Source: an uncultured Porphyromonadaceae bacterium (GTDB lineage: Bacteria > Bacteroidota > Bacteroidia > Bacteroidales > Muribaculaceae). From it: 64,000 bases of DNA. The notes beneath the pieces were generated by a model. It saw only the letters and a program-made list of their open reading frames with translations. It made no database searches and was not told where the DNA came from. Numbering within the stretch: position 1 is the stretch's first letter; each line of letters begins with the position of its first letter. Location of the stretch: NCBI GenBank assembly GCA_947567425.1, contig CANOLV010000004.1:84529-148528 (forward strand), read 5' to 3'. The translations under genes and the position numbers were made by a program. Below, one piece after another: positions 34,535 to 49,899 of this stretch.

Positions 34535-34600
34535 ATGTCCAAAATTGTAAAATAAATATCCGATTTTAAATGTCTGTGATGTCTATTCATGCTAAATTTG
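34535..34600 (+). promoter_or_regulatory. PUL operator-promoter A (before CE1 esterase operon)
   Basis: ATGTCC at 34535 and ATATCC at 34556 are direct repeats 21 bp apart, with a third ATGTCT at 34570. The -7 box TAAATTTG starts at 34593, exactly 58 bp after the first repeat. No -33 TTTG is visible, as expected for an activator-dependent promoter. The same layout occurs at 43435 and 49834. Confidence 0.75.
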
Positions 34601-34641
34601 TTCCCGTCACCAAAATAGTTTAACCGAAATAATTGTATGTC

Positions 34642-35760
34642 ATGAAACAAACACTGTTAGCGTTCGCTATATTGGCCATGTCAGCGGCCGGTGCGGCGGC
34701 ACAGTCTCCGCAGGACGATAGTTCGACAGTCTCGGACTATGCGGTCCGTCGGTCGGCTTATCCGAGGATATTGCCTGGAAGCCGTGCGGAGTTCAAGGTC
34801 AACGCTCCCGATGCAAAAAAAGTACAGCTTGATTTAGGCCGGTTATATGAAATGTCGCCTCAGACCGACGGATCCTGGACGTGTACTACGGATAGTCTCG
34901 GACCTGGATTTCATTATTATTTTATAGTTGTCGACGGAGCCAGAGTGTCTGATCCGGCCAGTGAGACATTTTTCGGATGCGGCGTGGCGGCTAGCGGACT
35001 TGAGGTGCCGTATCCCGACGGCGATGTACGGTTTGAGATGGCCGACGTACCGCATGGAGAGATAGCCATGCGGCCGTATTACTCTACTGTCGACAAGGCT
35101 TGGCGGAGAATGATGGTCTATACTCCTCCCATGTACCACCAATCTACCGACAAGAGGTATCCGGTCCTTTATCTGCAGCATGGAGGCGGTGAGGACGAAC
35201 GCGGCTGGGCCATACAGGGTAGGACCAATGTGATAATGGACAACCTTATTGCCTCTGGCGAGGCCGAGCCTATGGTCATAGTGATGGCCGATGGAAATTC
35301 CGCTGACTTTACGAAGATGCTCATAGACGATTGCATACCGCTTGTGGAAAGTACCTATAGGGTGGTTCCGGATGCCGCGCACCGTGCGTTGGCCGGCCTG
35401 TCGATGGGTGGAATACACACGTTGAACACCGTTATTGAGCATCCTGAACTGTTCAGTCATGTGGGAGTGTTCAGCTCCGGATGGTGGGCCTCTCCTGCAG
35501 GTGTGGCCGGATTAGGAGGCGATACGGAAAAGTATTATGCAAAGCTTAAAGAGAATAAGGATTATTTCAACAAGCAGTTTAAGAATTTCTGGATCTCTAT
35601 GGGCGGTCCTGAAGATATCGCATATAATAATTGCAAGGTGATGCGCGGACGGTTCGACGATATCGGCATCAAATATGTATACTTTGAGACTCCGGGAGGA
35701 CATACATGGCCGGTATGGCGCGAGAGCCTGTATAATTTTTCTAAACTTATATTTAAATAG
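34642..35760 (+). CDS. CE1-family esterase with N-terminal CBM48/E-set domain
   Basis: The 372-residue exported esterase has a signal peptide (about 1-22), an E-set (CBM48-like) beta domain (about 40-125; [19 protein letters not shown]) and a C-terminal alpha/beta hydrolase of family CE1 (about 145-372). The nucleophile is the Ser in GLSMGG, and the catalytic His is in GGHTW. CE1 enzymes remove acetyl or feruloyl groups from xylan. The ATG at 34642 is used rather than the TTG at 34633 because it starts the signal peptide. It is first in a three-gene operon with two GH43 genes and is a paralogue of the esterase at 49959. Confidence 0.88.
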
Positions 35761-35766
35761 ACAGTC

Positions 35767-38301
35767 ATGCCGAATACATTTATCAATAGATTTTTTGCTG
35801 TAGCCGCAGGAGTGTCGGCGGCAGTCGGCCTTTGTGCGCAGAATCCGATTATACGGGATCAGTTTACGGCCGATCCCACGGCGCGTGTGTTCAACAATAA
35901 GATGTATCTTTATCCCTCGCACGACATTCCAAGTCCGATCGACGAGCTTAAGGAATGGTTCTGCATGGCTGACTACCATGTGTTCTCGTCGGAAAATCTG
36001 ACCGATTGGAAGGATCATGGAGTTATCGTGTCGCAGACTACGGTGCCCTGGGTGAAATCAGACTCATACACTATGTGGGCCCCCGACTGTGTGGAAAAGA
36101 ACGGCAATTATTATTTTTATTTTCCGGCAGGACCGAAAGGCGAACAGCGGGGTTTCCGCATAGGAGTGGCTGTCGGCCAGAGTCCTGAAGGTCCGTTCAT
36201 GCCTATGCCTCGACCTATCGAGGGAATTATGGGCATAGATCCGTGTGTGCTTATCGACGACGACGGGTCATCGTATATCTATTGGTCGGGAATGGGTATG
36301 AAGGGTGCCAGATTGAACGACGACATGGTGAGCCTCGCATCCGAGCCGGTCAATATCGAATCTTTGCCCGAAGGATTTAAGGAGGGGCCGTTCGTGTTCA
36401 AGCGCGAGGGCAAATATTACTATACATTTCCCTGGGTCAAGGACAAGACGGAGACTCTTGCATACGCTATGGGCGACTCGCCGCTCGGACCGTTTACTTT
36501 CAAGGGTCTTATTATGGATGAGTCACCCGTAGGATGCTGGACAAATCACCATTCTATAGTTGAATATGACGGACAGTGGTATCTATTCTATCATCATAAT
36601 GATTATTCTCCCGATTTTGACAAAAATAGGTCGGCGAGGATAGATTCTCTGAAGTTCAATCCCGACGGTACCATTGTCAAGGTGGTTCCGACGCTGCGTG
36701 GAGTAGGACTGACAGATGCCCGCACGCACATTCAGATGGACCGCTACAGCGACATATCCAAAAAGGGTGTCTCGATTGACTATCTTGACAAGTCGGACCG
36801 GTTTGCGGGATGGAAGACACTGTTGAAAAACCGCGGGGCCTGGACCCGCTATAACAGCGTGGACTTCGGCGACAAGCCCGTCACTCATGTCACGGCCAGA
36901 GTGCTTGCTCCAAAGGGTGGACAGCTTGCAGTGTCTGTTGACGGAGTAGGCGGCGACGGCCGCATAGGGGTGCTTGACTTGAAGCCTTCCAAGCAATGGA
37001 CAGAGGTGTCCGTACCGGTTTCGGGAACGGCGCCCGTTGGAGTCCGCGACCTTTACATGGAGCTTGTCAAGGGCGGTGGAGTAGAGGTCGACTGGATCGG
37101 TTTTGATGCGCTCCCATGGACGGCAGGTGCATTCCAGACCGGACGCTACCGCAATCTTTTCGCAGAGATGGGATACAGTCAGGCTGAAATCGATGCCAGA
37201 CTTGATTCAATATACAATGGACTTTTTACGGGTCCGGACAAAGTCTATTTTGAAGTCGGACCCGACATGGCTTATATCAGCGACATAAAGAACCATGATG
37301 TACGCACTGAAGGCATGTCGTATGGCATGATGATTGCCGTGCAACTGGACAAAAAGGACGTGTTTGACCGTCTGTGGCGTTGGAGCAAGAAGCACATGCA
37401 GCATCAGGATGGCGACAACAAAGGATATTTCGCATGGAGCTGCTCGACCGACGGCCGACGCAATTCGCAGGGCGCCGCATCTGACGGCGAGCTATACTTT
37501 GTGACGGCTTTGGTGTTTGCATCCAACCGTTGGGGCAATTCCACAGGCATCGATTATCTGTCGGAAGCACGCCACATAGTCGACTGCTCGATGCAGAAAG
37601 TGGGCAAGTCGAGGACTGCGCCGCTGATCGACGTGGAGAAGAAGCTGATCACATTCACCCCCGACCGTTGGGGCGGACGGTTCACCGATCCGTCGTACCA
37701 CGTGCCTGCATTCTATGAAGTATGGGCGAAATGGCTCGACGACGGACGTTCGCAGTTCTGGCAGGAATGTGCCGACCGTAGCCGTGAGTATCTCCACACG
37801 TGCATTCATCCGCAGACCGGGCTAAATCCTGACTATAGCAACTATGACGGATCGCTCCTTGGCGGCAACCGAATCATAGGCGATGCCTTCCGCTTCGATT
37901 CATGGCGTGTGCCGATGAACATCGCCCTTGACTATTCATGGTCATGCGCCGACGGCGATTGGCAGCGCGGCTATGCCGACCGCATACAGAATTTCTTGTA
38001 TTCCAAAGGTATCGACGACTTTGTCGACCAATATAATGTCGACGGTACGGATGTCGACGAAGTGCTGAAAGCAGGTGAACACCAGAAACTGCGCCATTCG
38101 CTCGGGCTTGTGGCCACATCGGCCGCCGCATCGCTCGCCGCCACGGATATGAAGAGCCGTGAGTTCGTCGACCGGCTGTGGAATGCTCGCCATGAGCCGT
38201 ATGACGACGGATATTTCGATGCTTATTATGACGGCCTTCTGCGCCTGTTCGCGTTCATGCATCTGAGTGGCAATTATAGAGTGATCACCCCATCGATATA
38301 A
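35767..38301 (+). CDS. GH43 - CBM6-like - GH8 three-domain xylan enzyme
   Basis: The 844-residue exported protein has a signal peptide (1-24), a GH43 catalytic domain (about 26-320), a CBM6-like beta-sandwich (about 325-447) and a GH8 domain (about 455-842). GH43 catalytic residues are visible: Asp36 (TADPT), Asp158 (GIDPC) and Glu206 (KEGPF). GH8 residues are Glu515 (RTEGMSYG), Asp573 (ASDGE) and Asp711 (RFDSWR). The 196-residue Glu-Asp spacing is close to reducing-end xylose-releasing exo-oligoxylanase. One chain could thus attack side chains or the non-reducing end (GH43) and the reducing end (GH8). It starts 6 bp after the esterase gene. Confidence 0.92.
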   Translation: MPNTFINRFFAVAAGVSAAVGLCAQNPIIRDQFTADPTARVFNNKMYLYPSHDIPSPIDELKEWFCMADYHVFSSENLTDWKDHGVIVSQTTVPWVKSDSYTMWAPDCVEKNGNYYFYFPAGPKGEQRGFRIGVAVGQSPEGPFMPMPRPIEGIMGIDPCVLIDDDGSSYIYWSGMGMKGARLNDDMVSLASEPVNIESLPEGFKEGPFVFKREGKYYYTFPWVKDKTETLAYAMGDSPLGPFTFKGLIMDESPVGCWTNHHSIVEYDGQWYLFYHHNDYSPDFDKNRSARIDSLKFNPDGTIVKVVPTLRGVGLTDARTHIQMDRYSDISKKGVSIDYLDKSDRFAGWKTLLKNRGAWTRYNSVDFGDKPVTHVTARVLAPKGGQLAVSVDGVGGDGRIGVLDLKPSKQWTEVSVPVSGTAPVGVRDLYMELVKGGGVEVDWIGFDALPWTAGAFQTGRYRNLFAEMGYSQAEIDARLDSIYNGLFTGPDKVYFEVGPDMAYISDIKNHDVRTEGMSYGMMIAVQLDKKDVFDRLWRWSKKHMQHQDGDNKGYFAWSCSTDGRRNSQGAASDGELYFVTALVFASNRWGNSTGIDYLSEARHIVDCSMQKVGKSRTAPLIDVEKKLITFTPDRWGGRFTDPSYHVPAFYEVWAKWLDDGRSQFWQECADRSREYLHTCIHPQTGLNPDYSNYDGSLLGGNRIIGDAFRFDSWRVPMNIALDYSWSCADGDWQRGYADRIQNFLYSKGIDDFVDQYNVDGTDVDEVLKAGEHQKLRHSLGLVATSAAASLAATDMKSREFVDRLWNARHEPYDDGYFDAYYDGLLRLFAFMHLSGNYRVITPSI

Positions 38302-49711: not shown

Positions 49712-49729
49712 AGATAAATTACAGAGGTG

Positions 49730-49765
49730 GACGGCCCGACAGCCAAAAAGGAGAGTCGGGCCGTC
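49730..49765 (+). terminator. Terminator of the susCD operon
   Basis: GACGGCCCGAC and its complement form a perfect 11-bp stem with a 14-nt loop and a TATTTTTAT tract. Confidence 0.88.
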
Positions 49766-49833
49766 TATTTTTATCACCAACCATAATTCATAATCTCAAA
49801 TCCATAATCCATACTTAATATATGTCTGAAAAA

Positions 49834-49899
49834 ATGTCTATTATTAAAAATTAAATGTCTGAATTTGGACATTATTCAGGCTTCGGATCCATACTTTTG
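49834..49899 (+). promoter_or_regulatory. PUL operator-promoter C (before second esterase operon)
   Basis: ATGTCT at 49834 and ATGTCT at 49855 are direct repeats 21 bp apart, and another ATGTCT starts at 49822. The -7 box TACTTTTG starts at 49892, exactly 58 bp after the 49834 repeat. No -33 box. The leader downstream is nearly identical to the susC leader. Confidence 0.78.

Follow-up and report, generated by a model that had tools for sequence, protein, structure and literature searches.

Three tandem-repeat sites as predicted operators of a hybrid two-component regulator in a polysaccharide utilization locus of an uncultured Muribaculaceae bacterium

At the araBAD promoter of Escherichia coli, AraC binds the tandem half-sites I1-I2, about 21 bp apart, through its AraC-type domain, and the proximal half-site lies at the -35 region. 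AraC is a soluble protein that binds arabinose itself and loops DNA. Direct-repeat half-sites at an average distance of 21 bp have also been predicted, by comparative genomics, for 16 of the 36 hybrid two-component systems (HTCSs) of Bacteroides thetaiotaomicron (Ravcheev et al. 2013, PMC3878776). We analyzed a 64,000-nucleotide stretch of DNA from an uncultured Porphyromonadaceae bacterium (Muribaculaceae in the GTDB lineage; contig CANOLV010000004.1, positions 84,529 to 148,528 of the forward strand), referred to here as the window. It carries a polysaccharide utilization locus (PUL) in which one HTCS gene lies among three operons that begin with a first esterase gene (esterase A), susC and a second esterase gene (esterase B). 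The three 34-bp tandem repeats ahead of these operons are very probably operators of this HTCS, through which it would activate all three operons. Unlike the soluble AraC of E. coli, this regulator is a membrane hybrid kinase, and its promoters would be of the -7/-33 type of Bacteroidota.

Tandem HTCS repeats of this kind are already known, and the present operator belongs to that kind. Specifically, its like direct half-sites lie about 21 bp apart, as in the B. thetaiotaomicron motifs, and are kept 5' of PUL genes beside orthologous HTCSs. The published motifs concern other HTCSs, and the comparison made here is one of arrangement (PMC3878776). No constant spacing between repeat and -7 box was found in the available sections of that paper, and the term 'transcription start' is absent from its main text. 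Such a spacing was likewise not found in the available sections of the literature searched, with subscription papers outside the scope, and within the same scope no paper among the matches listed brought HTCS and TAnnTTTG together. The closest described locus is a B. intestinalis PUL (Pereira et al. 2021, PMC7815789) whose susC and susD rise about 25-100-fold on complex arabinoxylan. There the target DNA of the HTCS was called 'yet to be determined' and the HTCS was drawn as a repressor, whereas here an operator can be named and its position suggests activation. The present result offers a concrete predicted DNA target for an HTCS whose PUL is similar to this esterase-enriched arabinoxylan locus of B. 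intestinalis, and turns the choice between activator and repressor into a simply testable one.

Read directly from the sequence, the repeat pairs are ATGTCC/ATATCC (34535/34556), ATGTTT/ATATCT (43435/43456) and ATGTCT/ATGTCT (49834/49855), and in three of three cases a TAnnTTTG box starts 58 bp past the first repeat (at 34593, 43493 and 49892). The elements are listed below.

34535..34568, + strand: operator 1 (predicted), half-sites 34535-34547 and 34556-34568, 5' of the esterase A operon
34593..34600, + strand: predicted -7 box TAAATTTG, 58 bp from the start of operator 1
43435..43468, + strand: operator 2 (predicted), half-sites 43435-43447 and 43456-43468, 5' of susC
43493..43500, + strand: predicted -7 box TACTTTTG, 58 bp from the start of operator 2
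49834..49867, + strand: operator 3 (predicted), half-sites 49834-49846 and 49855-49867, 5' of the esterase B operon
49892..49899, + strand: predicted -7 box TACTTTTG, 58 bp from the start of operator 3

The half-site exceeds the hexamer. Its repeat unit is ATRTYYRAWWTTR, and two copies with 8 bp between them give a period of 21 bp and an operator of 34 bp. A first-pass annotation of this DNA had reported the three tandem repeats, their 21-bp period and the box exactly 58 bp on, all of which direct reading confirmed; its phrase 'two helix turns long' holds for the repeat period and not for the site, which is about 34 bp. Allowing up to three mismatches, ATRTYYRAWWTTR-N8-ATRTYYRAWWTTR matched the window five times, namely at the three sites (0, 0 and 1 mismatch) and at two echoes of sites 2 and 3 on the reverse strand, against a mean of 0.01 and a maximum of 1 in shuffled windows. 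This pattern was written after the sites were known, so the fair test lies in the loci of relatives. The hexamer pair ATRTYY-N15-ATRTYY stayed near background, with 24 window matches at up to one mismatch vs. 13.9 expected; the bare pair is too weak, and the signal therefore resides in the longer half-site. Pairwise identity was 24-26 of 34 among the operators and 6-11 of 24 among the 24-bp spacers that separate operator end from -7 box. Alike operators beside unlike spacers argue against recent copying of whole promoters, and the copied-promoter explanation was dropped for that reason.

The TAnnTTTG element of the Bacteroidota primary-sigma promoter is present at all three sites (as a -7 box by consensus match). 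As the earlier annotation had noted for TTTG, no TTTG or TTG starts in the region taken as -33, about 19-26 bp before the box, at any of the three promoters; the nearest lie 27-28 bp 5' of the box within operator 3 and 12 bp 5' of the box at site 2. This absence is weak evidence, because the -33 element is described as weakly conserved in this promoter type. Additional ATGTCT copies near operators 1 and 3 and an inverted GGACAT at operator 3 occur at 34570, 34579, 49822 and 49867-49872; the GGACAT places the proximal half-site of operator 3 within an imperfect palindrome.

Orthologs of the HTCS were collected from genome contigs and their flanks retrieved, giving 25 loci besides the window (28 entries, 478 kb); L005, on the same contig as L138, was removed before counting. 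A matrix for the half-site, trained on nothing but the six half-sites of the window, was applied in pairs at lag 21 with a main threshold of 16 bits. It gave 33 matches in the ortholog loci. TAnnTTTR followed these at 58 bp in 18 cases and at 59 bp in 4, vs. 5 cases over the other 58 offsets combined; at its frequency of 0.00094 per position in these loci, about 0.06 would be expected by chance in 66 looks, and more in AT-rich stretches. At the main threshold, 15 of 25 loci had operator plus box at 58/59 bp; a threshold of 12 bits raised this number to 18, and one of 20 bits lowered it to 12. The HTCSs of the 15 positive loci are 37-60% identical to the window protein. All four orthologs with at least 48% identity had operator and box, as did about half of those at 37-42%, and the loci have no 60-mers in common.

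Controls stayed low. The loci of 74 other HTCSs (1.41 Mb) yielded six matches, none with a box at 58/59 bp; some of these loci come from phyla with other promoters, and there the operator count alone, not the box, is the fair control. Five shuffles gave 0-3 matches and no box, and eight other repeat lags gave 0-6 matches. The search pattern proposed at first, ATRTCY-N15-ATRTCY, misses site 2 (ATGTTT) as written. Of the 30 listed sites, 26 entered alignment A1 (the weak L002, L140, L142 and L144 were excluded), and alignment A2 and model R1 used 21 of the 22 sites with spacing 58 (L144 excluded).

The sites stand ahead of PUL genes in relatives. For 26 of the 30 listed sites, among them the three of the window, the next 500 bp contain the start of a frame of 120 aa or more, and 18 of those 26 frames overlap a tblastn match to the window SusC, esterase or GH43. 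Orthologs of esterase A are preceded by a site in G011 and G214, those of susC in G011, G012, G214, G251 and G559, and those of esterase B in G011, G012 and G251. The genome G011 (HTCS 60% identical) has sites 5' of all three first-gene orthologs and a fourth elsewhere; G214 (59%) has operators 1 and 2, and G012 (51%) has operators 2 and 3, with operon 1 not seen in the stretch examined. In G251 (38%), the enzymes form one operon and susCD another, and there are two sites. In distant loci the operator stays beside the HTCS though SusC is 25-37% alike or not found. Since the operator is kept while other PUL genes vary, the HTCS is indicated as the shared factor.

In G559, a second 28-bit operator (L137:12044-12077, - strand) without a box at 58/59 bp stands back to back with the susC operator beside 12088 (+ strand). 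It faces the HTCS gene, and autoregulation is possible. The fourth G011 site (L185:6869-6934, far from the PUL) is a full-length operator of 33 bits with TAATTTTG at 58 bp, ahead of a short frame. Control of an RND efflux operon by this site was considered and is not claimed: a frame in the opposite direction separates the site from the more distant pump genes, and a 94% relative in the own genome of the window has no such site.

Genome-wide scans used R1, a sequence-only model of the 21 sites. In the own genome (92% complete) the three sites scored 48.8, 45.9 and 42.2 bits and the next match 16.5 bits, so the motif is not scattered over the genome, in line with the original expectation. Seven genomes of the genus without an HTCS ortholog gave a best R1 E-value of 0.007. 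Among 397 family genomes, the HTCS ortholog (E ≤ 1e-200) was present in five, and all five had an R1 match at E ≤ 0.001. Matches at this threshold also occurred in 9 of the 392 family genomes without such an ortholog; they were weak (best E 3.0e-5 to 6.7e-4), and at E ≤ 1e-5 just four family genomes were left, each holding the ortholog.

The genes of the PUL are as follows, with operons inferred from gene order. Operon 1 comprises esterase A, the GH43-CBM6-GH8 gene and a GH43 gene; operon 2 comprises susC, susD and two frames with no Pfam match; operon 3 comprises esterase B, the 248-aa protein and the GH43 with a ricin-type module.

39445..43299, - strand: HTCS regulator with Reg_prop, Y_Y_Y, HisKA, HATPase, receiver (TSHIP) and HTH_18 AraC-type domains; first ATG 43290, TTG 43299
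34642..35760, + strand: esterase A (CE1-like), first gene of operon 1
35767..38301, + strand: GH43-CBM6-GH8, the GH8 part near reducing-end xylose-releasing exo-oligoxylanases
38311..39342, + strand: GH43 by Pfam
43532..46654, + strand: SusC-like transporter, first gene of operon 2
46705..48387, + strand: SusD-like protein by Pfam
49959..51137, + strand: esterase B, closely related to BACINT_01033-CE1 of B. intestinalis (PDB 6MOT/6MOU), first gene of operon 3
51200..51946, + strand: 248-aa protein without a Pfam match; its place corresponds to that of the putative esterase BACINT_01034 (likened by position only)
51943..53403, + strand: GH43 with a ricin-type lectin module, placed like BACINT_01035 (GH43 with CBM13); nearest solved relatives are arabinanases

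By Pfam, the HTCS combines in one chain a propeller and Y_Y_Y sensor, HisKA, HATPase, a receiver and an AraC-type helix-turn-helix, and PDB relatives were found across the sensor, kinase and receiver/DNA-binding parts. Its receiver holds TSHIP, an instance of the S/CHIP motif that has been linked to suppressed DNA binding ahead of phosphorylation (PMC11253607). Across 23 ortholog proteins, the DNA-binding domain is 44-88% identical (37% in L135) and the sensor 26-55%; ten other HTCSs gave 31-45% and 14-25%, respectively.

The gene content resembles that of the B. intestinalis PUL. Esterase B matches BACINT_01033-CE1 at 732 bits (identity of the structures as given in PMC7815789), and in both PULs the genes next in line after this esterase encode a protein that belongs to no known family and then a GH43 carrying a CBM13-like module. 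Both also contain a GH43 with CBM6, SusC/D and an HTCS; the two HTCSs (here and BACINT_01044) are likened by presence only. In PMC7815789 a PUL is called esterase-enriched if more than two of its genes encode known or putative carbohydrate esterases, although the paper itself includes a PUL with just two; the window has two CE1-like genes and one protein placed like a putative esterase. Xylan had been proposed at first as the inducer. From the likeness to the B. intestinalis PUL, complex (feruloylated) arabinoxylan is a better guess than xylan in general, an assignment qualified by the GH43 at 51943, which among solved structures is nearest to arabinanases.

In the mechanism we propose, arabinoxylan oligosaccharides would occupy the periplasmic sensor of the HTCS, the receiver would be phosphorylated and the AraC-type domain released, and two monomers would then bind the two half-sites on the same helix face. 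Of the two, the half-site nearer the promoter lies 24 bp from the -7 box; it would stand in for the missing -33 element and contact RNA polymerase, and the esterase A, susCD and esterase B operons would be switched on together. Contact with polymerase is argued from the spacing tolerance of one base, and the upstream, -33-replacing position of the operator favors activation over repression. Activation is thus the better reading, as judged from sequence. The initial proposal, in which this HTCS binds one type of site at three targets (the two esterase operons and susCD), is supported by the comparative evidence, with binding and activation as predictions.

A repressor could also account for such sites, with the HTCS sitting on the operators without inducer and leaving upon oligosaccharide binding. 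That model is in print for B. intestinalis (PMC7815789), and chromatin immunoprecipitation sequencing of the HTCS BT0366 found it at loci it represses as well as at loci it activates (PMC3404733). We consider repression unlikely here: the operator ends 24 bp 5' of the -7 box and covers neither the box nor the start, no -33 element is present to be blocked, and a 58/59-bp spacing in 15 of 25 other loci is expected for contact with polymerase and not for a block. Moreover, an HTCS mutant of B. xylanisolvens lost expression of a xylan PUL (PMC4855328), and the receiver retains the S/CHIP motif, which is linked to suppression of binding prior to phosphorylation (PMC11253607). It is less probable still that the sites serve a different regulator, which could be another HTCS, an AraC protein of the one-component type or a global factor. 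The genome has 19 matches to the HTCS, partial ones counted, and AraC-type half-sites may resemble each other; against this, the own genome has no further strong site, the site follows this HTCS as other PUL genes change, and operator plus box was found in 0 of 74 loci of other HTCSs. The sites are AT-rich, and a 26-bp leader element is common to promoters 2 and 3, as might follow from chance or from a copied promoter segment. With 0.01 matches expected per window, operator-to-box spacers that are unrelated and 15 of 25 other loci carrying both operator and box, such an origin is hardly credible.

Several observations weigh against activation by the HTCS through these sites. At 16 bits, 10 of 25 ortholog loci are without operator plus box (7 at 12 bits), namely G459, G675, G764, G537, G684, G467, G729, L001, L002 and L003. 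Their HTCSs are 32-42% identical to the window protein, the range of 11 of the 15 positive loci, so distance alone does not explain them. Among the ten, L001 is merely 5.3 kb long, L003 starts within the HTCS gene, L002 has a weak site at spacing 60, and in G675 an operator of 22.8 bits is followed at 58 bp by TACTTTAG, which differs from the box by one letter. In G214, esterase B follows susD after about 90 bp with no operator between. In close relatives, site and HTCS could travel together merely because the PUL does. The -7 boxes are predicted elements, assigned by consensus match only. The three own-genome matches belong to the R1 training set (the emptiness elsewhere is not forced), and two of the nine family genomes without the ortholog match R1 better than does G251 (8.8e-5).

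Whether this geometry extends to other HTCSs was examined at further loci. On balance, we lean slightly toward a fixed HTCS architecture in Bacteroidota, in which a 21-bp tandem repeat of any half-site sequence would start 58-59 bp before TAnnTTTG and replace the -33 element; the evidence at other HTCS loci is suggestive only. Among 26 lags at offsets 55-61, lag 21 gave the top self-identity in set A (0.335 vs. 0.285, z 3.3; 101 candidate promoters, 42 of 78 loci) and in set B (0.339 vs. 0.281, z 4.5; 109 candidate promoters, 39 of 40 loci). In the control (50 promoters, 18 of 20 loci) it reached 0.292 vs. 0.276 (z 0.9), and the top lag was 11. Against a general architecture stand the small per-promoter effect and the finding that identities of at least 10 of 14 were commonest at lag 21 in the control too (3/50, next 2; 11/101 in set A and 8/109 in set B). 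Among the 20 control loci, taken without pre-screening, HTCS-like pieces occur in L250 and a kinase/receiver match in L245, which likewise counts against it. The orthologous loci L186 and L202 (sets A and B) share two sampled 60-mers, with no other sharing among sets, control and ortholog loci.

At one locus of another HTCS, L221, four promoters share a different block at about 59 bp. Their internal lag-21 identity is modest (10, 7, 7 and 6 of 14), and a strict repeat pattern fits two of the four, with one further match in 3.58 Mb of other loci. Promoter pairs with at least 20 of 35 identities at zero shift numbered 7/750 in the ortholog loci, 5/1433 in set A, 9/742 in set B (five from L221) and 1/630 in the control. 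The pairs from L044, L046, L019, L201 and control L240 were set aside as support, being plain or inverted duplications by eye, and only L221 was retained. A crude SusC signature gave six promoters only, and a hidden Markov model was used instead, which found boxes at 13 of 39 SusC starts. For the SusC-start promoters, lag 21 ranked highest overall (14 boxes) and in set B (10), but not in set A (4). If the fixed -7 spacing holds for HTCSs generally, the targets of many HTCSs of gut Bacteroidota would be predictable from sequence by geometry alone, and glycan-responsive promoters could be designed with the correct spacing.

The 26-bp element TAATCRTRAATTTAATACACGCATGA common to the susC and esterase B leaders lies at 43510-43535 and 49911-49936. 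A third copy was not found in the window at up to three mismatches (with a pattern derived from the two copies), and sequences resembling it also occur in G011 and G214. Its ATG is the start codon of susC; at esterase B this ATG begins a frame of eight codons, the last of which, a stop, overlaps the main start codon (TAATG). Two adjoining frames 3' of susD (48573-48998 and 49010-49711) have no Pfam match, and the first looks lipoprotein-like at its start by eye. Just past the last PUL gene, a tRNA gene (53934-54014) and an ISL3-type transposase frame (54185-54922) form a possible mobile boundary. An RNase P RNA lies at 4489-4907 of the window.

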